29,656 bases of DNA from a virus. Shown one piece after another: positions 4,119 to 26,300 of this stretch. How positions within the stretch are numbered: the first letter of the stretch is position 1; every line of letters starts with the position of its first letter. Below the pieces are notes generated by a model, which ran no database searches, was not told where the DNA came from, and saw only the letters and a program-made list of their open reading frames with translations. The position numbers and the translations under genes are program-made. Where the stretch lies: positions 1 through 29,656 of IMG/VR virus record IMGVR_UViG_3300044610_000151, one strand, 5' to 3'.

Positions 4119-4587
4119 TTAATATCTCCGCTGCCCTACCATAAGTTAAAATACCTAATTGTTCATACATATTAACAAAAGCAATTGTCTTAGGATGAGC
4201 TAAATAAACTCTTCTAGCGTCAGCATAATAGGCTAAAGCAGAAAGTATTCCTGCTTTTTGTTCAGAAGAAAGATTAGGGTTACTTTGATAAGTTGCATTA
4301 AAATTATCGACAAGAACTTGCTCTTGCGTTGTGAATCTATCTCTGAATTCTGCTTTAAAGAAAGGAACTTCATAATTCATAGCTTCTGCTTCAGCAAGAG
4401 CTTTTGCTTGAAGTTCAACATTTATTTTTTCTGCACGAAGACTAGCAACAAGTTGAAGATCAAGTGAAGCATCAGCTAGATAGTTGATGGTTTGCGTGTC
4501 ACCATTATCATAAGTATGTCGTTCAGTAACATCAATTCTACCATCAATTTGCGGTATTTGTTTTTCAATAACACTATTAACTATCAT
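4111..4587 (-). CDS. Hypothetical helical phage protein (158 aa)
   Basis: Not recognised by family. Residues 1-40 are polar with a GRIDVTERHTYDNGDTQT stretch that looks beta-stranded; residues 45-75 (VASLRAEKINVELQAKALAEAEA) form a likely amphipathic helix or short coiled coil. The C-terminal half (SSEQKAGILSALAYYADARRVYLAHPK) is also helical. No membrane segment is seen. A GAGGG Shine-Dalgarno sits upstream of the ATG. Its end overlaps the start of the fibre gene at 4118 by 8 bp, which suggests coupled translation and a link with fibre or appendage assembly, perhaps as a chaperone or adaptor. That role is inference. Confidence 0.5.
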   Translation of the reverse strand: MIVNSVIEKQIPQIDGRIDVTERHTYDNGDTQTINYLADASLDLQLVASLRAEKINVELQAKALAEAEAMNYEVPFFKAEFRDRFTTQEQVLVDNFNATYQSNPNLSSEQKAGILSALAYYADARRVYLAHPKTIAFVNMYEQLGILTYGRAAEILNA

Positions 4588-4597
4588 AAACCCTCAC

Positions 4598-4852
4598 TTA
4601 TTTATCAACTTTCTTATCAAGCATATCTCTTATATTATCAAGTTTTCCGAAAAGAGCATCAACTTTTGCCTCGAAATAACTCTTCTCAACATAATCTCCG
4701 GCAACAAGTTTCTCAACTTCAGAAATCTTTGCCGTTAGTTCTTTATTATCTTTCTGTAAATCTTTTATAGATTCCCAGACAACTCTAAGAACCCACCCTC
4801 CTAAAGCAGTAATAAATCCTACAGCTATGTTGAATAATTCTTGATTTGACAT
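4598..4852 (-). CDS. Small membrane-anchored coiled-coil protein
   Basis: The 84-residue protein has one hydrophobic segment near its N-terminus (about residues 6-26, FNIAVGFITALGGWVLRVVW). A strongly heptad-like charged region follows (IKDLQKDNKELTAKISEVEKL), and then a second helix ending DNIRDMLDKKVDK. This one-TM-plus-coiled-coil layout is common in small phage proteins, some annotated as holin-like or XhlA-like, but no function is established for this one. It is the first gene of the leftward cassette, directly downstream of the minus-strand promoter, with an AAAGGG ribosome site. It is distinct from the more convincing holin candidate in the rightward lysis module at 27958. Confidence 0.55.
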   Translation of the reverse strand: MSNQELFNIAVGFITALGGWVLRVVWESIKDLQKDNKELTAKISEVEKLVAGDYVEKSYFEAKVDALFGKLDNIRDMLDKKVDK

Positions 4853-4906
4853 AAGTAACCCTTTAAAATCCTCAGCAAGTTATAGATAAATTATTACGTT
4901 TATAGT

Positions 4907-4935
4907 TTTACAATTAGTGCTTTTTGGCGTATTAT
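4907..4935 (+). promoter_or_regulatory. Sigma70-type promoter for packaging/head genes
   Basis: TTTACA (4907-4912), a 17-bp spacer and TATTAT (4930-4935) match the consensus -35 and -10 hexamers at five of six positions each. Transcription would start near 4942 and read into the small terminase gene at 4992. The -10 overlaps that of the divergent minus-strand promoter. The leader would open with a short GC-rich hairpin (GGCCGG 4948-4953 against CCAGCC 4957-4962, one mismatch). Confidence 0.55.
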
Positions 4936-4959
4936 ACCTTATATATAGGCCGGTGTCCA
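4931..4959 (-). promoter_or_regulatory. Sigma70-type promoter for leftward fibre cassette
   Basis: On the minus strand TGGACA (4959-4954), a 17-bp spacer and a perfect TATAAT (4936-4931) form a near-consensus promoter. Transcription would start near 4924 and proceed left into the gene at 4852. The -10 shares five base pairs with the plus-strand promoter, so polymerase should not occupy both at once. Confidence 0.6.
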
Positions 4960-4991
4960 GCCAGCCTTGAAACCTTTTTGAGATTATAGTT

Positions 4992-5681
4992 ATGGCAGAT
5001 TTAGAAGAATTACTCTATCTTGATGGACAAGTTGAGCCAGCAAAACTTTGTGCACTCTTTGGTGTTAGCGTTAATGCAATATATCAAGAGAAACAGCAAG
5101 GCTTATTCGGAACTAAAGAGTTTCCAGAAATGACCTATAGGGAAGCGATAAAAACTTATCGAGAGAATCTTAAACGAAGTATCGAAGTTAAGCTTGCAAA
5201 AGAAGAAACAGAAAGACAACTAAAGCTTAAGAAGATTGAAGAAGATCGAATCTTTAAAGAGAAGAAAGCAAAAAATAACTTATCTTCCGGTCTTATAGGC
5301 ATGGAGGGTGAAGATACAATGCACCCTTTAATGAAAAAGAAACTTATCCAAGAGATTAAACTTGGTCGTGTTAAAGAAGTACAGGCATGGCTTAATATTG
5401 CTGAGGAAAAGAAAGTCTTTCTTAATGAGAAAGAATTAACAAATCTTCTTGAACCTTTCATGCACGTTATAAAGAATGTTCTTATAAGTATAAGTACAGA
5501 TTTTCCAGAAACTCAGAGTAAGATTGAGGTTTGTATGAATAATTTATATGCTTTTGGTGAGAAACTTCTTGACCAAGTTGATCTTGATGAAGAAGTTTTT
5601 GTCGATGAAATGCTTGCAAAAGATATTGATGATGCTATTCTTGAACTTAATTTCATTCCTGAAGAACGAGAAGATTTATGA
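4992..5681 (+). CDS. Terminase small subunit (gpNu1-like)
   Basis: This 229-residue protein lies immediately before an unmistakable gpA-type large terminase. Its N-terminus (about residues 12-42, QVEPAKLCALFGVSVNAIYQ) reads as a helix-turn-helix/winged-helix DNA-binding segment, as in lambda Nu1. A long charged coiled-coil region follows (residues 60-95, KRSIEVKLAKEETERQLK), then a helical C-terminal half with an acidic tail (EEREDL) that would contact the large subunit. It is expected to recognise the packaging site and regulate cleavage by the large subunit. The ribosome site is weak (GAG at 4979-4981). Its TGA overlaps the next ATG (ATGA, 5678-5681), coupling the two terminase subunits. 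Assignment rests mainly on position and architecture. Confidence 0.75.
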   Translation: MADLEELLYLDGQVEPAKLCALFGVSVNAIYQEKQQGLFGTKEFPEMTYREAIKTYRENLKRSIEVKLAKEETERQLKLKKIEEDRIFKEKKAKNNLSSGLIGMEGEDTMHPLMKKKLIQEIKLGRVKEVQAWLNIAEEKKVFLNEKELTNLLEPFMHVIKNVLISISTDFPETQSKIEVCMNNLYAFGEKLLDQVDLDEEVFVDEMLAKDIDDAILELNFIPEEREDL

Positions 5682-7633
5682 GGCATTTAGGTAACACAGC
5701 AGAAAGAAGATTCTTCGCGAACTTCTTTAAACTATTCTTCAAACCAGCTTATGTTTCAACAATAGAATGGGCGAAAAAGTATAGGATTATAACAAGTAAG
5801 GAAAGTTCATTCGGGATAGGGAATTTTGACCCGAACTTAACTCCTTATATGGAGTATGTTTATGATTGTTTAGATAATCCTTATATAGCGAATATAAGTG
5901 CAATGAAGTCAGCAAGGATTGCTTGGACAGAAACATTAAATAATTATAGAGGTAAAAGAATCCACATTAATCCAACTTCAATGCTTCTTGGTTTCGCAAC
6001 TCGTGATGCTGCAAGAAGTTTTGCAAAAGGGAAATGGCAGGAGTTTATAAAAAACATACCTATTCTTAAAAGTATTATCGACGTTGGAGTTAGTGAAAAT
6101 AAGAAGTCAATCTTTGATTATTCCTTTCCTCATGGAAGTTTAAAACTTGTAACACTTGGTTCAATCTCAAATCAAAAATCCGACAACTATGAATACATCG
6201 AGATTGAAGAACCAGATGATGCTAAAGATGATGTTAAGGGTCAAGGAGATACTTTTGCTAACCTTAAAGAAAGACAAAAACTTGTACCAATAACAAGAAA
6301 GAAATTCATCTTCGGAGGTACACCAACTTTTAAAGATTTCTCTCGTGTTGAAAAAGCAATACTTGCTTCAAACCAACTTATCTTTAAAGCTTGTTGCCAC
6401 AACTGTAATGAACTTATCCCTATGGATGGAAGTTCCTTTGACCATATACACTATGATGAGTATCAAGAAAGATATATTGATGAAGTTTATGGGAAGTTTA
6501 ATCCTGAAACAGCAATCTTCCTCTGCCCTTCTTGCCAAACTCCTTGGGATTTTGAACAGAAGAAAAAGAACATAATTGAAGGTAAGAAGTTTGGGTTCAC
6601 CGACCACACTGGAAACTTCTCTAAAGGTTGGCATCCAAAGAAACCAGAAGTTACAGAAGTTTATGGATTTATTTTTTCCGAAATGCTTTCTCCTTTTCCA
6701 GCAAGTGATTTTAAAGAACTAGCTAAAGCAAAAATAACTGCTGAACTAGAACTTGCAAAAGGGAATGAATCGCCAATGAAGTCTTATACCAATAATAAAA
6801 AAGGTATGCCTTATGCTTCTGGTGTTTCTGCAATGGAAGTTGATGAAATGAAAAGTCTTAGACTTAATTATCCAGAACATATTTGTCCAATGGAAGGTTT
6901 AGTAGTTACCGCAGGAATAGATGTTCAAGATAACCGATTTGCTTTTGTACTTCGTGCTTGGGGAAGAGATAACAACTCCTGGTTAATAACTTGGAAAGAA
7001 ATCTTTGGTGATGTAAAGAACCAAGATGATATAGTCTGGACAAGACTACTTGACGAAACTGTATTAAAGGAGATTCCTCATGCTTCTGGAAAAACTATCC
7101 GTGTTTCTGCTATTTCTATCGACTCAGGTGATAATACTGATCTTGTGTATGATTGGGTTCTTGCTGCTCACCAGTATAACGATCAGGTATTTGCTACAAA
7201 AGGTGTTAGGGATTTAAGATATTCTGAAGATGAAATATATAAAGAACCTTCGTTATTCGATGTTGATACAGGAAAACAAATAAGAAAGACTCTTGCAGAA
7301 ACAAAAGGTGTCACTCTTTATCATCTTGGAGCGCATAGGGCGCATAATGATATTCTTACGAGAATCGGACTTAATAAGAATAAAGAAGCTAAGAAGAATG
7401 TTTACTACTTTAACGAGCAAAGTTATGGGAACTACGAAGAACAAATGCTCTCCTGCCGGAAACTTATTGATGTGAATTCTTCCTACAATAAAGAAGTTTT
7501 CAAACTTATTCCAGGTAAAAGAAAAGAAGCTATGGATGCTGAAAAAAATACACTTCATGCTTCTATAGCAATTGGTGTAAGAATGTTTACAGAAGAACAT
7601 TGGCGCGAACTTGAAGCTTATTATCACAATTAG
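5678..7633 (+). CDS. Terminase large subunit (lambda gpA-like)
   Basis: ATPase and endonuclease that cuts concatemeric DNA and pumps it into the prohead. The 651-residue length is close to lambda gpA (641). A gpA-type deviant Walker A is seen at residues 77-84 (KSARIAWT) and a Walker B-like acidic segment at 173-180 (YIEIEEPD). A zinc-ribbon-like insertion has CHNC (240-243) and CPSC (283-286). The nuclease domain starts at about residue 408 with VVTAGIDVQDNR, where Asp415 is the expected metal ligand. The C-terminus (EEHWRELEAYY) is where lambda gpA docks to the portal. Its ATG overlaps the stop of the small subunit. The gpA-type enzyme implies packaging from specific sites (cos), which I cannot locate with certainty here. 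Confidence 0.93.
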   Translation: MRHLGNTAERRFFANFFKLFFKPAYVSTIEWAKKYRIITSKESSFGIGNFDPNLTPYMEYVYDCLDNPYIANISAMKSARIAWTETLNNYRGKRIHINPTSMLLGFATRDAARSFAKGKWQEFIKNIPILKSIIDVGVSENKKSIFDYSFPHGSLKLVTLGSISNQKSDNYEYIEIEEPDDAKDDVKGQGDTFANLKERQKLVPITRKKFIFGGTPTFKDFSRVEKAILASNQLIFKACCHNCNELIPMDGSSFDHIHYDEYQERYIDEVYGKFNPETAIFLCPSCQTPWDFEQKKKNIIEGKKFGFTDHTGNFSKGWHPKKPEVTEVYGFIFSEMLSPFPASDFKELAKAKITAELELAKGNESPMKSYTNNKKGMPYASGVSAMEVDEMKSLRLNYPEHICPMEGLVVTAGIDVQDNRFAFVLRAWGRDNNSWLITWKEIFGDVKNQDDIVWTRLLDETVLKEIPHASGKTIRVSAISIDSGDNTDLVYDWVLAAHQYNDQVFATKGVRDLRYSEDEIYKEPSLFDVDTGKQIRKTLAETKGVTLYHLGAHRAHNDILTRIGLNKNKEAKKNVYYFNEQSYGNYEEQMLSCRKLIDVNSSYNKEVFKLIPGKRKEAMDAEKNTLHASIAIGVRMFTEEHWRELEAYYHN

Positions 7634-7641
7634 GAGTTACT

Positions 7642-7917
7642 ATGATAACAATGCCGTTATCCGAAGCACAAAGTCAACTAAAAACTGTGCAAGTTGCTAT
7701 ATCAGATTTAATTGGGGGAAAGCGAATAACTCAACTTAGAGTTGGTTCAGGAAACTTCCAAAGAGAGTATAAGTATTGGAACCCAGATACTTTACTTAAC
7801 ACGTTAATCGAATTAAGGAGTGATCTTAACCTTATTATCGCAAGTTATTCAACAGCTACACCAACTTTCCGTACAAACTCAACAATACCTCTTCAAGTAG
7901 GTAAGGATATATTCTAA
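7642..7917 (+). CDS. Head-tail joining protein gpW-like
   Basis: Lambda gpW is a 68-residue protein that plugs the head after packaging and creates the site for FII. This 91-residue product has the same plan and lies between terminase and portal exactly as W does. It shows an N-terminal helix (SEAQSQLKTVQVAISDLIGGKRI), a beta hairpin (QLRVGSGNFQREYKY) and a second helix (NPDTLLNTLIELRSDLNLI). The SDLIGGKRITQLRVG segment parallels the HDLMTGKRVATVQ region I recall for lambda gpW. The extra C-terminal 20 residues are unstructured-looking. An AGGAG site at 7632-7636 supports the first ATG; a second ATG three codons in is possible. Its TAA overlaps the portal ATG. Confidence 0.85.
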   Translation: MITMPLSEAQSQLKTVQVAISDLIGGKRITQLRVGSGNFQREYKYWNPDTLLNTLIELRSDLNLIIASYSTATPTFRTNSTIPLQVGKDIF

Positions 7918-9347
7918 TGACTGAAGAAGATATGTACTTTAGTGTTTTAACACAACCTGCTTATGAAGGAGCAGTTACAAATTATCGTAAAGAACAATCA
8001 GGTATTGTTTATGGAACTTCAGATAATATTGCGGCAAGGGAACTCCTAACTCTTCAACTTCGTTCTGCTCATGCAAGAAGAAACAATGGTTATGCTTCTT
8101 CAGCAGTTAAGAAGTATGTTGAAAATATGAAAGCTCTTGAAGTTAATTGGATTGACAAGAAAGGGAAGAAACATACTCAAATGCAAGATTTATGGGAAGA
8201 GTTTAAACTTGACCCAATGCTTGATGGTTATGGAGATTTCAGAACTTTTCAAGCAATCCATCATGGGAGTTGTTTTATGTCTGGAAGTTCTTTTGTAAGG
8301 AAGCAGATTCGTCGAGCAAATAACAAGAACAAAGTTCCATTAAAACTGGAGTTTATTGAGTCAGAGTTCCATGATATATTTTACTCCGGTCTTTCTTCAA
8401 ATGATAATGTAAGGAATGGAATAAAATTTGAAGATTCAAAACCAGTTGAATATTACTTTCAAAGAAGTAGAATTGATACAAGTGTTCGAGTTGATTCAAA
8501 CCCTTATGAGAAAATAACAATCCCTGCTTCAGAACTTATTCATAGTTTTATTAGAGAAAATCCAAATCAATGGATAGGTATTCCTTTTTTATCATCAGTT
8601 CTTCTTCCTCTTTATGAACTTGATGATCTTGCTGATGCGACAGTTAATAAACAAAAAGCTGCTCAAGCTATTTCTTGGATTATTGAAAATACAAATCCAA
8701 TGAATATGACTCCAGTTGGAGCACCAGCAATTAAGAAAGATCAGAACAATAACGATAAAGTTATCTTTCAAGCAAGAGGAGGTAATGTTCAATATCTTAA
8801 TAAAGGTGAGAAACTAACTTCAATTCAATCTTCAGATATTGGAAATAACCTAATCCCTTTCATGGAAGTTGAACTAAGAAGAATTGCTGCTGCTATTGGT
8901 ATTCCTTATTTCCAACTTACAGGAGATTATAAAGGAATTGATTTCTCAACTCTTCGCGGAATTGCAATTGAGTTAAGAAACCGGATTGAATATGTTCATC
9001 ACTTCTATACAATCCCACTTCTTCTTAGACCTATTGCAACTTCTTTTAAAGACTTAGCAAACCTATATATTCCCAGGACTTCAACAGCTATTCCAGTATT
9101 TCAAATGCCTAGATGGTATGGAGTTGATGAACTTAAAGATGCACAAGCTGATATTCTTGAAGTTCAAAACGGAATGGCAACTTTACAAAGTAAACTTGAT
9201 GAACGTCATACTACTTTTGAAGAAATTGCTGAAGATAGAAAGATGATCCAGGAACTTGGGCTTGATAACTTATTAATGGCAGGTGGTAAACAAATGGCAC
9301 AAGCTAATAATAGTCAGGCAAATGCAAATTCTACTGGAAACGCATAA
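7917..9347 (+). CDS. Portal protein (lambda gpB-like)
   Basis: The dodecameric portal forms the DNA channel at the capsid vertex and docks terminase, then the connector proteins. This 476-residue protein has the features of the lambda-type portal family: an N-terminal region with LLTLQLRSAHARRNNGYASSAVKKYV, a central stem/wing part, and a C-terminal helical segment with LDERHTTFEEIAEDRKMIQELG. The stretch YFQLTGDYKGIDFSTLRG is the typical conserved block (lambda-type LTGDYSxxxYSSxR). Position between gpW and the prohead protease fits. It starts within the gpW stop codon (TAATGA). A 78-bp promoter/terminator region follows it. Confidence 0.92.
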   Translation: MTEEDMYFSVLTQPAYEGAVTNYRKEQSGIVYGTSDNIAARELLTLQLRSAHARRNNGYASSAVKKYVENMKALEVNWIDKKGKKHTQMQDLWEEFKLDPMLDGYGDFRTFQAIHHGSCFMSGSSFVRKQIRRANNKNKVPLKLEFIESEFHDIFYSGLSSNDNVRNGIKFEDSKPVEYYFQRSRIDTSVRVDSNPYEKITIPASELIHSFIRENPNQWIGIPFLSSVLLPLYELDDLADATVNKQKAAQAISWIIENTNPMNMTPVGAPAIKKDQNNNDKVIFQARGGNVQYLNKGEKLTSIQSSDIGNNLIPFMEVELRRIAAAIGIPYFQLTGDYKGIDFSTLRGIAIELRNRIEYVHHFYTIPLLLRPIATSFKDLANLYIPRTSTAIPVFQMPRWYGVDELKDAQADILEVQNGMATLQSKLDERHTTFEEIAEDRKMIQELGLDNLLMAGGKQMAQANNSQANANSTGNA

Positions 9348-9352
9348 ATAAG

Positions 9353-9381
9353 TTGACAAAAAGCCCTATTTTATGTAAACT
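9353..9381 (+). promoter_or_regulatory. Strong promoter for head-protein operon
   Basis: A perfect TTGACA -35 (9353-9358), a 17-bp spacer and TAAACT (9376-9381, four of six consensus) lie just after the portal stop. Transcription would begin near 9388 and read the protease/scaffold, decoration and major capsid genes, the products needed in the largest amounts. The promoter overlaps the left arm of an inverted repeat. Confidence 0.6.
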
Positions 9382-9406
9382 ACCCTTGCAGAAAAGTAGG
9401 GCTTTT
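9359..9406 (+). terminator. Terminator-like inverted repeat enclosing the promoter
   Basis: AAAAGCCCTA (9359-9368) and TAGGGCTTTT (9397-9406) are perfect 10-bp complements separated by 28 nt. GC-rich core plus terminal T-run resembles an intrinsic, possibly bidirectional, terminator, although the T-run is only four bases and lies within the stem. RNA read through from the portal would form the hairpin; RNA begun at the internal promoter would lack the left arm. Confidence 0.45.
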
Positions 9407-9425
9407 ATCAGCTCAGGAGAAAATA

Positions 9426-10643
9426 ATGAAACTAAAAGAACTAGATAAACTTTCCGGTAACGAACTTAAAGAAGCACTTAAAACTCATAAAGATGTTTTA
9501 ATTGCTGAGAAAAAAGGAACCATAAAGTTTACTGATGGTTTAATTCATCAAGCAGATATTACTCCGGTTGAGACTCAAAAAAAAAGTTTTGACTTAAAGG
9601 AAGATTCTGAAGAAGTTGATGCTCCATTCATGGTTACAGTTGTTTGTAATACTGCAAACTTTTGTGACTCTCACATGGATGTTTTAACTGATGAAGCTTA
9701 TAAAGAAAGCATAAAGAATAGAGGAAACTCTATCCCTCATATTGCAGACCATAAGCATGAATCAACTGCACATGTTGGTGATGTTAAGAAAGTTTACACA
9801 AAGAAACTTCCTGCAAATGAACTTGGTTTTGAATCTTCTGAAGAAACAACAGTTCTTCTAATGGACTCGTTAATCCGAAAAGACTATAATGAAGATGTTT
9901 ACAAATTCTATAAGTCTGGAAAGATTAACCAACATTCAATCGGTTTATCTTATGGTGAAATAGAACTTGCTTACAACTCTCAAGTTGAAGGTGATGAAAA
10001 AGAATATGAAATCTGGCAGAAATACTATCCACAAATCCTTAATAAAGAAGTAGTTGATAAAAGAGGTTATTTCTGGGCAGTTACTAAAGTTGATGTTAGA
10101 GAAAACTCTTGTGTTCTTTTTGGTGCAAACTCACTAACCCCTACTTTATATACCGAACAAAAATCGGATTCCTCCGATAACAAAATTAATCTTCTTTCTG
10201 AAGATAACAAGTTTAAACAACCTGAAACTTTTACAAAAGGAGTCACTATGACTATTGAAGAACTCCAAGCTGAAGTCATTAGACTAAGTGCGGAAAATGC
10301 AACTTTAAAAGGTTCTCAAGAAACTGCTGTTAAGTCTGCTGTTAAAGCAGAACAAGATCGTATCTTGGGAATTCAGAAATCTGCTGAAACTTTTGGTATC
10401 AAAGGAAGTCTGGAAAAATTTATTAAATCTGGTGCAGATATTGATTCTTGTACTGGTATGTTTGAACTTATTAAAGAACAAACTCAACTAGCTAATCCTT
10501 CTCCAAAAAGTGAAGATCAAGGTTCATTGAATTCAGATAATACACAAGAAGTTAAATCTGATGAACCAAAAGCTTTTGGTGGTATTCTGGAAGGATTCAA
10601 ATCCTTGGCAGAACAAAAAAACATTTTTGCTAACGTTAAGTAA
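9426..10643 (+). CDS. Prohead protease with C-terminal scaffold domain
   Basis: Bifunctional maturation protease and scaffold, 405 residues. The N-terminal 260 residues match HK97-type (U35/S78) prohead serine proteases. A conserved His sits in PHIADHKHES (His109) and the candidate catalytic serine in GKINQHSIGLSYG (Ser171, less likely Ser175), with the beta-strand VTKVDVRENSCVLFGANSLTP closing the fold. From about residue 275 the sequence becomes helical and charged (IEELQAEVIRLSAENATLKG), ending in a polar tail, as in scaffold proteins. The protease should cleave the scaffold and itself during prohead maturation. An AGGAG site at 9415-9419 precedes the ATG. An internal in-frame start produces the scaffold alone (see 10248). 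The arrangement parallels lambda C/Nu3, although the protease fold here is the HK97 type. Confidence 0.85.
   Translation: MKLKELDKLSGNELKEALKTHKDVLIAEKKGTIKFTDGLIHQADITPVETQKKSFDLKEDSEEVDAPFMVTVVCNTANFCDSHMDVLTDEAYKESIKNRGNSIPHIADHKHESTAHVGDVKKVYTKKLPANELGFESSEETTVLLMDSLIRKDYNEDVYKFYKSGKINQHSIGLSYGEIELAYNSQVEGDEKEYEIWQKYYPQILNKEVVDKRGYFWAVTKVDVRENSCVLFGANSLTPTLYTEQKSDSSDNKINLLSEDNKFKQPETFTKGVTMTIEELQAEVIRLSAENATLKGSQETAVKSAVKAEQDRILGIQKSAETFGIKGSLEKFIKSGADIDSCTGMFELIKEQTQLANPSPKSEDQGSLNSDNTQEVKSDEPKAFGGILEGFKSLAEQKNIFANVK
10248..10643 (+). CDS. Nested scaffold protein from internal start (Nu3-like)
   Basis: Inside the protease gene, and in the same frame, AAAAGGAG (10235-10242) lies 5 nt before an ATG (10248-10250), a near-ideal ribosome site. 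The product would be 131 residues. It starts MTIEELQAEVIRLSAENATL, a clear heptad-type helix, continues with a second helical part and ends with GFKSLAEQKNIFANVK. It matches exactly the helical scaffold domain of the long product. In lambda and many related phages the scaffold is made this way, in excess over the protease fusion, as Nu3 is from C. The nested start is seen directly; its use is inferred. Confidence 0.75.
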   Translation: MTIEELQAEVIRLSAENATLKGSQETAVKSAVKAEQDRILGIQKSAETFGIKGSLEKFIKSGADIDSCTGMFELIKEQTQLANPSPKSEDQGSLNSDNTQEVKSDEPKAFGGILEGFKSLAEQKNIFANVK

Positions 10644-10656
10644 GGAGTAATTACTT

Positions 10657-11475
10657 ATGCCTGAATATAATGGTGGATTCCAAAGTTATCCAGATAAGGT
10701 AACAAAGGATATTTTCTTTCGTGCGGAAGGTAGACAAACTAAAACTGTCACCTTACTGGCTGGTCAAGTAGTTAAAGCTTTAACTCCTTTATCTTCTAAT
10801 AATGATGGTAAATATGTTGTTTATGCTGGTGTTCTGAATGAAAGTAACTTGGTTACTTTAAGCTCGAACTTGGCAAACACTGAAACAACTATTACTGCTG
10901 GTTTAACTGCTACTGCTTCTGGTGTTGTTACTGCTGCTAACTGGGCTGCTGCTATTCTTAACTATGTTAAGAATGGTGTTGCTGCTGGTACTAACGTAAC
11001 TATTTCTGGTACTTTGACTGGTTATACTATTGATGCTTACGATGCTGATAGTATCGTATTTACTTCAACAACTGCTTTAACTGATGTTACCGACTTAGCT
11101 GCAACTGGTACTGCTTCAGCAAAAGTTTCTATCGTTAATATTGACGGTACAACTACTTTGCCTCGATTAGCAGGTATTGCAGTATATGACGTAGCTGCTA
11201 TTAACTCTGCTGGTGCAAATGCTGATACTGAAATTGCTGTTTATTCAGAAGTTTCTTTGTGGGCAGATGCTATTCGTTGGGCTGCTGACCCTAATGCTGA
11301 TACCATTACTCTTCCTGATGGTACTACTAGAGCATGTACTTCTTTCAATACTGGTGCTGCTGGTATCCCTGCAACTCAAGCAGATGTTAAAACTTTGAAA
11401 CGATTGAGACAGAAACTTGTTGAAGGTTCTGAATTCGATACACTTGGTTTCAGAAACTTAGGAGATTATATCTAA
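10657..11475 (+). CDS. Capsid decoration protein (gpD-like) with insertion
   Basis: Position between scaffold and major capsid protein is that of lambda gpD, the trimeric head-stabilising protein. The first 60 residues (RAEGRQTKTVTLLAGQVVKA, LTPLS, KYVVYAGV) and the last 105 (LAGIAVYDVDA-like segment, IAVYSEVSLWADAIRW, TLKRLRQKLVEGSEFDTLGF) read as a head-decoration domain with its FxxG-type strands. Between them, residues about 61-166 are an Ala/Thr/Gly-rich beta domain (TITAGLTATASGVV, TISGTLTGYTIDAYDAD) that lambda gpD (110 aa) lacks; it could project from the capsid surface. A GGAG site precedes the ATG, and the stop overlaps the capsid ATG. Codons are heavily T-ending, as in the capsid gene, suggesting high expression. 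Confidence 0.75.
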   Translation: MPEYNGGFQSYPDKVTKDIFFRAEGRQTKTVTLLAGQVVKALTPLSSNNDGKYVVYAGVLNESNLVTLSSNLANTETTITAGLTATASGVVTAANWAAAILNYVKNGVAAGTNVTISGTLTGYTIDAYDADSIVFTSTTALTDVTDLAATGTASAKVSIVNIDGTTTLPRLAGIAVYDVAAINSAGANADTEIAVYSEVSLWADAIRWAADPNADTITLPDGTTRACTSFNTGAAGIPATQADVKTLKRLRQKLVEGSEFDTLGFRNLGDYI

Positions 11476-12665
11476 TGGCTGTTACTACTTTTTTATCCCC
11501 GTATGATATTGCTCCTATCTTAGATGGTGCAATGATGGCTATGGAAACTAAGCGACCTAATTGGTTGCAAAGTTTCTTCCCTGCTCCACAATATTCAGAC
11601 AGAACTAGAGTAAATCTTGACCAAGAATATAACATTAAGAATGTTATGGGTCAATTTGTTGCTCCAACTGCTGATGCTACTCCAATTAAATTGAATGACT
11701 TTGGTACAAAAGAATTGTACTTTGCTTATTCAAAAGAAAGTATTACTTCAGATGATTTTGAAACTTTAAACAGTAGACAATTTGGTCAACAATTTGGTCA
11801 AGTTGATGTTTTAGCTAACAAAGCTTTAAGATTGCAACAAAAAGTAACTCTGGCAGAATATCGCTTTGAGAACTTGTTTGAGAAAACTGCTGCTGATATT
11901 TTCCTTTATGGTGGTTATCAAGCTTCTGGTGAAAATCATCCTATTGTTCGTTATGATTTCAATAGAACTGTTATCAGAACTACTGCTCAATTGAATAGTT
12001 TGAAACTTATTCCTTCTGTGAACTTAACTGCTTCTGCTGTTACTGCTCCTTGGGATAGTTCAACAACTGTTCTTCCTGTTCTTTCTGGCGGTACTGCTGG
12101 TGCAAGAGCTTGGAGTAAAGCTAAAGTTGATGATAAATCTTGTACTCCAGTTCTTGACGTTGTAAGAATCTATGAAACTGCTAATGCACGTTCTGGTTCT
12201 TCTGCTGTTGTAATGTCTGATGATGCTTATGATGTATTTAATTATGATTTGACCAAAAACTATTTGGTTTCTTCTGATTTGACTATTTCAAGTGTTGTTC
12301 GTGTTGCACAAGACTTGTTACCAAGAGCGCAGGAATATAAAGGTTTGACTTTTAGAAGATCATATCCTTTAGATAACGGTGCGTTAATTAATATCTATAC
12401 CTATAATGCGGTTTACAATGATCGTATTACTGGTGTTGAGACTTCTTATATTGGTAATGGTTGGGTTCTTTCTCTTCCTTCTGCTGAAAACGCATTGAAG
12501 ATTTATGGTCGTATTATGCATCCAAGAGCTAACTGGGCTTCTATGCCACGTTGGATGAACTATTGGATGAATGAGAAAACTGGTCAGGAAGAGTATGAGT
12601 ATCATACTAATTTCCTTATGGCACACAAAGATATTGACTCATGTGTCGCATGGAAAGTGATATAA
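11475..12665 (+). CDS. Major capsid protein (lambda gpE-like)
   Basis: HK97-fold shell protein of the Phage_cap_E family, 396 residues against 341 in lambda. Family features seen include the N-terminal FLSPYDIAPILDG, the E-loop region after RTRVNLDQEY, and the long spine-helix segment LRLQQKVTLAEYRFENLFEK. The C-terminal block (ALKIYGRIMHPRANWASMPRW, then KTGQEEYEYHTNFLMAHKDID and a final WKV) is characteristic of gpE-type capsids, where the conserved aromatic/His tail is near the end. The start overlaps the decoration gene stop (TAATGG) with GGAG upstream. Codon usage is dominated by GCT, GGT, ACT and TTG, unlike the fibre genes. The gene is intact; the following HNH gene lies outside it. 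Confidence 0.93.
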   Translation: MAVTTFLSPYDIAPILDGAMMAMETKRPNWLQSFFPAPQYSDRTRVNLDQEYNIKNVMGQFVAPTADATPIKLNDFGTKELYFAYSKESITSDDFETLNSRQFGQQFGQVDVLANKALRLQQKVTLAEYRFENLFEKTAADIFLYGGYQASGENHPIVRYDFNRTVIRTTAQLNSLKLIPSVNLTASAVTAPWDSSTTVLPVLSGGTAGARAWSKAKVDDKSCTPVLDVVRIYETANARSGSSAVVMSDDAYDVFNYDLTKNYLVSSDLTISSVVRVAQDLLPRAQEYKGLTFRRSYPLDNGALINIYTYNAVYNDRITGVETSYIGNGWVLSLPSAENALKIYGRIMHPRANWASMPRWMNYWMNEKTGQEEYEYHTNFLMAHKDIDSCVAWKVI

Positions 12666-12683
12666 GTTTTAGTTAATTGAATC

Positions 12684-12737
12684 TAATGCAGCTAGTCCGG
12701 CCAGACGAAAAGAAGAAACCTACTTCCTGCTGCATTA
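12684..12737 (+). ncRNA. Three-way-junction RNA element, degenerate hammerhead-like
   Basis: TAATGCAGC (12684-12692) and GCTGCATTA (12729-12737) form a 9-bp perfect stem closing a 36-nt loop. Within it are GUC/GAC (12695-12697/12704-12706), then GAAA (12707-12710), then GAAG/CUUC (12712-12715/12723-12726). The order of stems and the GAC-GAAA junction resemble a hammerhead ribozyme, but the CUGAUGA core is reduced to CUA and the cleavage-site nucleotide is G, so self-cleavage is not expected. The structure could alternatively be a processing site, mRNA 3-prime stabiliser or weak terminator of the capsid transcript. Confidence 0.4.
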
Positions 12738-12769
12738 CTTTATTAGGTTAATTTTATTAAGGTGATAAA

Positions 12770-13282
12770 ATGATTACACAAGAAAGATTAAAAGAACTTG
12801 TAGATTATTCTCCTATAAATGGTAAATTTATAGCAAAATGTTCTGTAGGTAGAGTTAAGAAAGGAACTGAATTAGGTTGCTTTGATAAAGCTAGAGGTTA
12901 TATTGTAATAAGACTAGACTCTACATTATACCAAGCACATTTACTAGCTTGGTTATATGTATATGGAGAATACCCAGAGTTACTAGATCATAAAGATACT
13001 AATAAAACAAATAACACCATTTTAAATTTAAGATTAGCTACAAAATCACAAAATGGTATGAACTCTTTAGTAAGAATTGATAGTACAACTGGTATAAAAG
13101 GAATAGTTTGGGAAGAACGAGCAAATGGTTTTCAAGCTAGAGTTGTTCTTGATAGAAAAAATTATACTAGAAGATTTAGTTGTAAGAAGTATAAAGATAA
13201 AGAAATAGCTTTACAGGAAGCTATAAAATGGGTACAATGTAAAAGAAATGAACTTCATGGCGAGTTCGCAAACCACGGTTAA
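12770..13282 (+). CDS. HNH homing endonuclease with AP2 domain
   Basis: Free-standing DNA endonuclease, 170 residues. The HNH core spans about residues 55-98: AHLLAWLYVYGEYP (His57), LLDHKDTNKTNN (Asp73-His74, Asn82) and NLRLATKSQNGMN (Asn86, Asn95). This is the pattern of phage HNH homing nucleases. An AP2/ERF-type DNA-binding domain follows at about 105-160 (TTGIKGIVWEERANGFQARV), ending HGEFANHG, a very common tail in this family. It would nick or cut a target near its own locus and spread by recombination. It is inserted between the capsid gene and the gpZ-like gene; its codons (TTA, ATA, AGA) differ from the T-ending capsid codons, a sign of transfer. AAGGTGAT supplies its ribosome site. 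A role in phage packaging is unlikely. Confidence 0.9.
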   Translation: MITQERLKELVDYSPINGKFIAKCSVGRVKKGTELGCFDKARGYIVIRLDSTLYQAHLLAWLYVYGEYPELLDHKDTNKTNNTILNLRLATKSQNGMNSLVRIDSTTGIKGIVWEERANGFQARVVLDRKNYTRRFSCKKYKDKEIALQEAIKWVQCKRNELHGEFANHG

Positions 13283-23327: not shown

Positions 23328-26300
23328 TGATGAATGAATTAATGGATGTGTCAGGTTCTATGGGTGGTGGTAAAGGTGGTAAAGGAAGCCGTACTCCAGT
23401 AGAATCTAATGATACTTTAAGAAGTAGTCAAACAATTAAAGTCCTTCTCGCTATACATGACGGGGAAATTGACTCTATTGAAAACATATATCTTAATAGA
23501 ACACCTATTTCAACTTATGATGCAAGTTTTGATGTTCGTTATGGTTTAAGTAATCAGGAAACAATTCCTGGTTTTGTTAACACTGAAAGTCCGTTTAATT
23601 ATAATAGCTCTGAGATTACACAGGCAACTCCTTCAGAAACTTTAACTCTTGCTTCAGATGTTGACGCTGTTAGATTAACTTTCTTTGTTCCACAACTTTC
23701 ACAATATTTAGAAAACGGAGATTTAGTTGGTTCTGGTGTTTCTCTGCAAATAAGAACTGGGATAAATCCTGCAAGTTTAACTTATTATTCTAACACTGAT
23801 AAATCCGGTAAATCATCCTCTGAATACGCATGGGATGTTCTAGTAACTCGCCCAACAAATATTGGTGGAAATCCAAACTGGTACGTTAGAGTTTATAGGA
23901 ATACTCCTGATTCAACTTCAGTTAAAACTAATAATAAGACCCATCTTGCAAGTGTTACGCAGATTTATTATAAGAATTTAACTTATCCTGGAACAGCACT
24001 TGTTGGTATTACTTTAAGAAATGCAGATCAATTTGGTGGTCAAGTTCCTGAAATTACCATTAAAGGTAAGTTTGCAAAAGTTAGAGTACCAAATAACTAT
24101 GACCCAGTTAACCACACTTACTCTGGATTCTGGGATTTAGGTTTCTACCCAACAAAACGTTTTACTTCAAATATTGCTTGGATTATTGTTCATTGCTTAA
24201 TTGATGAAACTTGCTTAAACCTCCCTCATTCAGATATAGATAAAGCAAGTTTCTATGAACTTTCTATCTATGCTGATTCTTTAGTTGATGATGGTCTAGG
24301 TGGGCAAATTCGTCGTTATCATATGGGGTATCAATTTTCCTCAAGAGATAATGTACCTAGTTTTTTAGCAAACTTATTATCAATATGTAATGCCCAACTT
24401 GCAACTAATGAAGTTGGTCAAATTTGTATTGTTTTCGACCAAGAAGGAATTCAACCTTCAAGAATTGTTGCTAACTCTAATGTTCTTGAAGGAGTTTTTA
24501 ACTACTCCTCAAATGACATTGAAGGAAGAACAACACAAGTTAATGTAACTTATAATAACTTTGATAAGTTCGGTGATACTGATACAGCAACTTGGCCCCC
24601 TGCGGTTATAACTCCAGATTCTCTTGAAGAAAAACTTATCAATCGCTATGGTATTCAACCTTCAGATATTGTTCTTCCAGGTTGTCGTTACGAAGCACAA
24701 GCAATATATAAAGCTCGTTGGGCTTTCTACACAAACTGTTTAACAACAAGATTTATCACATTCAAAGTTATGCTTGCTGGTATGACTTATAAGTTTGGAG
24801 AAGTTCTTCAAATTATGGATAGTGAGAATCGCCAAGTTATGCAACATGGAGTTATTACTGGTTCAAGTGTTTTAGCTGGTGTTACGACAATTAATCTTGA
24901 TAGGGATATTGTTTTATCAAACACTGTTTGGACAATTAGTTTTACAGATGCTAATGGTTTAACCATTCATGAGAAACAAATTCTTCAATCTGGTGGCACA
25001 GTTAATGCTGTAACCTTTAACGGAACAGAAGTACCTTTTATTGGTTCAACCTTTATTCTTAATGGGCCGATTGAAGCAAAACTTTATAAAGTAACTGGTA
25101 TAACTAAAGATGATGAAACTTATGTTATCTCCGGTATCGAGCATGATGAGAATAAATACGCCTATATTAACGAAGGTGTAACTATTGACGCACCAACAGG
25201 GGATTTCGTTAATGTTAGTGAGTTCACTGTTGAGCCAGTAGTTAATGTTACAGTTCTTCCAGTAAGTTCTTCAGATGGGATAAATTCAAACATTCAACTT
25301 TTTGTTGGTTGGGAATGGGATTTAGATCACTCTTCAAAATTTAAGGCAGATTTTATTGCTAATTGGAGAAGAGATGGAAAGGATTTTACAATTGTTCGTG
25401 ATATTCAAGGACAAAGTTTTGATATAGATTCTGCTGTTCCAGGTACTTATGAGATAAACATTTGGGCAATTAATCCAGCAACAGCAATTAAATCTACTGT
25501 TGTTAGTACTGTTTATAACTATAAGACAACTGCTGGAACAAGTGCGCTTCTTCCTCCTGTTAATGCGAGAATTGCTGGAACTTCTGGTTTAATCTATGCT
25601 TCTCCTGCAATGACATTACTTTGGGATTATAACTCCCTTAATGATGATGTTGCTGAAGATAGTCTTTATGATTATGTTGTAGAGTTGTGGGATGTTTCTG
25701 GAGTTACAAAGTTTTCCTCACATACTGTTAATCCAGACATTGAGAAAAATGGTAGTTTCACTCTTTCTTTTGTTGAAAATGTTGCAACTTTTGGTTCTCC
25801 AACAAGAGAGTATCAGGTTAAACTCTATTCAAGAGACTTAACCGGCGAAGTTTCAACTGCATATAGTGTTACTGTAAATAACAACGTACCTGCTACTCCA
25901 AGCTTTACTCTTCTTTCTGGGGTTAGTCAGACTTTTGTAAACATTACTCGGTCTACTGAATATGATTTACAAGGTTATATTGTATATAGAAGGCTTTACA
26001 GCGGTTCTACTTGGACTCCTTCCACTGGGGATATTGTTTATAAAGGGCCAGATAGTTATATACCTCTTGGTGTGGTTGATGCTGGTACTTATCAATTTGC
26101 TGTTGCTGCTTATGATACTTTTGGAGACAGTGGGTTAAATGTAAGTTCTATACAACAAAGCACAACTTTAACTGCTGAAACGGATAAGTTTGCTTATTCT
26201 GGATTGCTCTTCACTCCGAATAGTCCGACAACCAATTCTGTAACTTGGGCAACTTTTCAAGTAACTATTAATGGTGGTACTGTTCAAAATGTTTCTGGAA

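Follow-up and report, generated by a model that had tools for sequence, protein, structure and literature searches.

A predicted family-wide head-gene promoter and a clade-specific hairpin, possibly confined to read-through RNA, at the portal–protease junction of a virus family

Introduction

From one late operon, tailed phages have to produce portal subunits, about a dozen in number, and capsid subunits in the hundreds. The locus described here raises the question of how the portal and capsid messages of such an operon might be kept apart. The window, as we call the whole stretch of DNA analysed, is a virus record of 29.7 kb whose packaging and head module is of the lambda type (Table 1). From the terminase to the capsid genes a single gap exceeds 15 nt, and this gap of 78 nt separates the portal gene from that of the probable prohead protease. 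A sequence-only reading of the DNA had placed here a promoter nested in a terminator-like repeat, and had suggested that this design could insulate the head genes from upstream transcription.

Table 1. Coordinates of the genes and regulatory features at the portal–protease junction of the window
Feature	Position	Strand	Remarks
Terminase large subunit gene	5678-7633		
Small protein gene	7642-7917		Between terminase large subunit and portal
Portal gene, lambda gpB family	7917..9347	+	Pfam PF05136, E 7.5e-53; PHROG 21; upstream of promoter and hairpin
-35 box TTGACA	9353..9358	+	Same element in the same gap of most relatives
Promoter spacer	9359-9375	+	17 nt
Hairpin left arm AAAAGCCCTATTTT	9359..9372	+	Inside promoter spacer
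-10 box TAAACT	9376..9381	+	17 nt past the -35 box; GATACT at the aligned position in L011; better TATAAT-like boxes at that of other relatives
Expected transcription start	9388..9390	+	Inferred, about 7 nt past the -10 box
Hairpin right arm AAAGTAGGGCTTTT	9393..9406	+	In leader of internal transcript
Short U-tract TTTTAT	9403..9408	+	Partly in stem; not rich enough for a strong terminator; G instead of T9408 in L001/L002
Shine-Dalgarno region	9415..9420	+	Outside hairpin, not sequestered
Probable prohead protease gene, first of head operon	9426..10643	+	Assigned by position and relatives; product without family match in the window's family searches
Further head protein gene	10657-11475		Between protease and major capsid
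Major capsid protein gene, gpE family	11475..12665	+	Pfam PF03864, E 5.9e-9; PHROG 29

Two other loci of the window deserve mention. The capsid gene is separated from the following gene by a segment of about 616 bp (12662-13277), which contains an int-alpA RNA (RF02996; 45 bits, cut-off 35.8) together with a gene for an HNH endonuclease; the otherwise near-identical relative L001 is without this segment and has about 9 nt in its place. The segment resembles a mobile cassette in which the HNH gene is accompanied by a structured RNA. At 4853-4991 a divergent gene pair is separated by two promoter-like sites with one common -10 region, TTTACA-17-TATTAT from 4907, directed rightward into the terminase operon, and TGGACA-17-TATAAT from 4959, directed leftward. 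The pair of sites is identical in L001 and L051 and possibly represents a bidirectional, mutually exclusive promoter.

A sigma70-type promoter upstream of the head genes

The perfect TTGACA noted in the earlier reading is indeed present, and with its -10 box it forms the element TTGACA-17-TAAACT, which matches 10 of the 12 positions of the sigma70 consensus at a spacing within the 16-18 nt of promoters of this type. The promoter score of the gap lies in the top 0.4% among equal-length stretches of the window. TTGACA itself is under-represented in the window, where it was found 4 times and is expected 24 times by chance. The transcription start previously proposed near 9388 agrees with the position expected 7 nt past the -10 box, and we infer that internal transcripts would begin there.

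Relatives were fetched by their portal, capsid and terminase, and the gap from the portal to the next gene was read in each of them. This gave 31 distinct gaps, with portal identities to the window of 37 to 100%. A promoter with at least 10 of 12 consensus matches and 16-18-nt spacing was found in 23 of these gaps, as compared with a mean of 1.3 and a maximum of 6 for shuffled gaps. Within its own locus, the gap promoter usually outscored all other stretches or ranked in the best 1% (empirical p 0 to 0.01 for most). In several relatives the promoter is a better one than in the window, that of L039 being a perfect TTGACA-16-TATAAT. The element is thus conserved at the same place beyond chance, as expected of a sigma70-type promoter, and comparison indicates that a head-gene promoter in the portal–protease gap is a real, family-wide feature. 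The earlier suggestion that the promoter serves the head genes is accordingly backed by position and consensus throughout the family. We regard this predicted family-wide promoter as the firm part of our account and the insulator function considered below as a prediction.

Searches further afield found no DNA relatives among annotated phages, and the portal relatives from isolates were at most 33% identical among those listed. In two of these isolates, Vibrio phage MAR and Wolbachia phage WOcauB1 (about 30% identical), the portal gene overlaps the next gene, so that there is neither gap nor promoter. A portal search of host genome contigs gave no relatives; the matches listed in a DNA pattern scan of the same contigs were spread over unrelated taxa, and none of them belonged to the portal gap list. 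In L006 the portal and capsid are conserved despite a divergent post-portal gene (4130-5443), which is 30% identical to its window counterpart over part of the protein and differs in its N-terminal half. This difference points to an exchange of modules immediately downstream of the head promoter.

An inverted repeat built around the promoter

AAAAGCCCTA (9359-9368) is perfectly complementary to TAGGGCTTTT (9397-9406), with 28 nt between them, just as the sequence-only reading had stated. The inverted repeat extends to arms of 14 nt (9359-9372 and 9393-9406) that are 93% complementary. The promoter spacer contains its left arm, its loop takes in the -10 box and the expected start, and its right arm belongs to the leader. 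The arm had been described as overlapping both TTGACA and the spacer; it does lie within the spacer, and it directly adjoins the -35 box instead of entering it.

When folded as RNA, the gap has a minimum free energy of -26.6 kcal/mol (z = -5.5), a value as good being reached by none of 200 shuffles. The stem consists of 14 + 5 bp and includes a small internal loop; its length corresponds to the roughly 20 bp of double strand expected of an RNase III site. RNA folded from 9388 onward is missing the left arm and cannot form the stem; the predicted asymmetry between read-through and internally started RNA therefore holds at the level of folding. The inverted-repeat score of the gap was matched by 17 of 16,000 dinucleotide shuffles, and a coding stretch elsewhere in the window, around 24181-24271, scores equally high. 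An outer stem, AGTTGA/TCAGCT, is weakened by T9408G in L001/L002, and we dropped it as support for this reason. In the internal RNA of the window an alternative leader hairpin, GGGCT/AGCTC, is within chance (61 of 200 shuffles); its counterpart in L011 is stronger (z -2.2). A search of Rfam gave nothing matching at the promoter or hairpin.

Distribution and evolution of the hairpin

L001 and L002 have portals 99% identical to that of the window and are therefore of little help in judging the pairing; their G at position 9408 falls outside the main stem. L011, with 69% portal identity, has in the corresponding place a repeat of different sequence, ACTAACCCTATTTTGTG and CACAAATAGGGTTAGT, with a stem of at least 13 + 3 bp. 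Three pairs have changed on both sides between the window and L011 (A-U to C-G, A-U to U-A and G-C to A-U), one U.G has become U-A, nine pairs are unchanged and one is broken. The pairing signal is lost when the partner is slid by one to three columns. Covariation of this extent was reached by 19 of 500 shuffles in what is one pairwise comparison of two lineages. None of 16,000 shuffles reaches the repeat score of the L011 gap.

The hairpin clade also differs from its relatives in leader length. The distance between the last base of the -10 box and the start codon is 44 nt in the window and 52 nt in L011, as against 20-29 nt in most relatives. The leader of the window's clade is about 20 nt longer, and the right arm lies in this extended leader. 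In the internal leader of L011 (3374-3428) an 8-bp hairpin, TAGGGTTA/TAGCCCTA, can form with the use of the right arm of the larger hairpin, and the two L011 folds are consequently mutually exclusive.

Most relatives have the promoter without a significant hairpin. Inverted repeats can be seen by eye at the promoter of many of them, and shuffling leaves only those of the window clade, L011 and L019/L134 above chance. A search with the pattern TTGACA..CCCTATTTT..TAGGG returned, beyond the window clade and L011, only unrelated contigs. One of these, L049, is a short tandem repeat array and no relative: this GC-rich viral contig, unrelated to the window, contains at 1364-1496 tandem TTGACAAATCRGCCCTATTTT-like units at 36-nt spacing. 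The pairing of the window's hairpin thus looks selected, to judge from the compensated changes, and is limited to its clade, made up of the window and L011 lineages.

L019 and L134 (portal identity 42-43%) have a 19-bp hairpin of unrelated sequence, GCATAAACATAATATA/TATATTGTGTTTATGC, across the head promoter; it begins before the -35 box and reaches the -10 box. It folds with -23.7 kcal/mol in L019 and -20.4 kcal/mol in L134, and was matched by 14 and 18 of 16,000 shuffles, respectively. Since the expected start comes after both arms, the hairpin would be wholly absent from internally started RNA. Two unrelated sequences therefore place a long stem across the promoter that is missing from the internal RNA.

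Discussion

The explanation that we favour, tentatively and with somewhat less than even confidence, combines a family-wide head promoter with a clade-specific hairpin that would be formed only by read-through RNA and would separate or attenuate the read-through mRNA. A sigma70-type promoter would give the genes for the protease, the scaffold or decoration protein and the major capsid protein their own transcripts. In the window's clade this promoter appears to have been built into an inverted repeat, with the spacer as left arm, the -10 box and start as loop and the right arm as leader. Transcripts from the upstream terminase promoter, which we assume from the gene order to cross the portal–protease gap, would carry both arms and form a hairpin of about 19 bp just past the portal stop codon; those from the internal promoter would have the right arm alone and no hairpin. 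The hairpin would then most likely affect only read-through RNA, through processing of the RNase III type or protection of RNA ends and, in the window version, perhaps through partial termination. As a result, a low-copy portal mRNA would be split from a high-copy capsid mRNA. A conserved internal promoter at the portal–protease border, accompanied in some clades by a hairpin marking each RNA by its start point, would be a compact way to set the portal/capsid ratio.

The action of the hairpin could be explained differently. If it were an intrinsic terminator with an embedded promoter, as had been supposed, read-through RNA would stop at about 9406-9408 and internal RNA would escape. The window offers the stable G+C-rich stem of such a terminator, with pairs kept in L011, and an A-tract/U-tract layout (AAAAGCCC...GGGCTTTTAT); the gap site also appears in the list of terminator-like sites, with a U-tail score of 3.5. 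However, only four consecutive U are followed by AUCAG, the UUUUAU of the window is altered to UUUUAG in L001/L002 (tails as compared, UUUUAUCAG and UUUUAGCAG), and L011 has compensated its stem yet has no U-tract, its tail scoring 2.4, or 1.0 past the whole stem. A U-rich tail directly past the stem is thus not conserved (TTTTATCAG in the window, TTTTAGCAG in L001, TTAGTTTAGC in L011). The L019/L134 hairpin is also without a U-tract, the sequence after the hairpin being GCGATAAUC there and UUAGUUUAGC (after GGG) in L011. A stem kept by compensatory change while its tail is lost indicates that selection acts on the formation of the stem and not on a terminator as such, and across all these relatives hairpin selection does not track the terminator tail; both the window's hairpin and that of L019/L134 can be accounted for without such a tail. 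Of the terminator-like repeat, the stable stem and, through the three compensatory changes in L011, its selected pairing stand, and the poor, unconserved tail does not. The hairpin is probably not a good transcription terminator, and we regard this reading as unlikely; weak termination by the window's own version is possible, as is insulation of the head genes from upstream transcription by RNA processing or partial termination. A translational switch like that of phage T4, in which the protease gene would have its ribosome site blocked by the hairpin of read-through RNA, is very improbable, even though the geometry is that of T4 late promoters inside hairpins (PMC2988022), the left arm is missing from internal RNA because 9359-9372 lies upstream of the expected start, and the right arm reaches the upstream edge of the 30S footprint. 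The opening energy of the region from the Shine-Dalgarno sequence to the AUG is 0.9 kcal/mol for read-through RNA as against 1.5 for internal-start RNA, a small difference in the wrong direction, so that masking of the ribosome site is not supported. For the wider footprint (-20 to +15) the cost is barely higher in read-through RNA (7.9 versus 6.7), and in L011 it is the internal RNA that forms a hairpin beside the Shine-Dalgarno region.

The repeat could also act as DNA, its arms being half-sites for a phage regulator of the head promoter. The arms do flank the promoter core, the spacing of their CCCTA/TAGGG core is nearly constant (33 nt in the window, 34 nt in L011), and symmetric changes would also be expected after a shift in regulator specificity. 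Yet, with 14-16 bp, the arms would make long half-sites, the motif occurs in a single gap of the window, the L019 arms are positioned differently relative to the promoter, and a change from U.G to U-A makes sense for RNA, T.G being a mismatch in DNA. An operator of this kind seems to us distinctly unlikely. We consider it less probable still that a real promoter is accompanied by a chance or relic repeat without function of its own. The absence of the hairpin from most relatives and the equal repeat score of a coding stretch would fit such a repeat; the compensatory changes in L011, the shuffle probabilities (about 0.001 for the window, below 1/16,000 for L011) and the unrelated hairpin at the same promoter in L019/L134 speak against it.

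The preferred reading, separation of portal and capsid mRNA by a read-through hairpin, could be taken further. Promoter-spanning hairpins that fold only in read-through RNA may have evolved repeatedly in this phage family from unrelated sequences, as an insulator that is neither a terminator nor a mask of the ribosome site and that separates the two mRNAs by the origin of transcription. For now this generalization, suggested by the two hairpin sequences, is doubtful.

Comparison with known systems

The G+C-rich stem, the A-tract and the short U-tract of the window resemble those of Rho-independent terminators, from which the locus differs by a U-tract that is short, altered in the sister strain L001/L002 and missing in L011. 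At the T7 junctions phi3.8, phi6.5 and phi13, where RNase III has a role, promoter and hairpin likewise meet at a gene junction in a long operon. On folding, however, their main stems start at or close to +1 and are kept by the internal RNA, whereas the internal RNA of the window loses the left arm; we therefore rejected them as instances of the same design. In IS10 and IS50, fold-back protects against impinging transcription: an inverted repeat present in the outer transcript but missing from the inner one lets only the outer transcript fold, as predicted for the window. The setting there is the end of a mobile element, with the ribosome site of the transposase hidden, and not a phage operon junction.

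Closest in geometry are the T4-type late promoters located within RNA hairpins, described for I-TevI, I-TevII, I-TevIII and segB and for mobE of phage Aeh1 (PMC2988022). There too, RNA started upstream has both arms and folds, and RNA from the embedded or adjacent promoter cannot; the promoter is a phage late promoter, and the hairpin hides the ribosome-binding site (PMC2988022). The seg43(25) gene of Aeromonas phage 25 has a stable hairpin just upstream of its ribosome site without covering it, as in the window, but has no established role and, in the passage that describes it, no promoter within the hairpin (PMC2988022). In contrast to the T4-type cases, the promoter of the window is sigma70-like, it would serve a capsid operon, and the ribosome site is open. 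The promoter-in-hairpin geometry is thus already familiar from homing endonucleases and late genes of T4, and what appears new here is the type of promoter, the genes served and the open ribosome site. If our reading is true, the logic of the T4 hairpins would apply not only to the timing of translation but also to the insulation of operon segments from one another.
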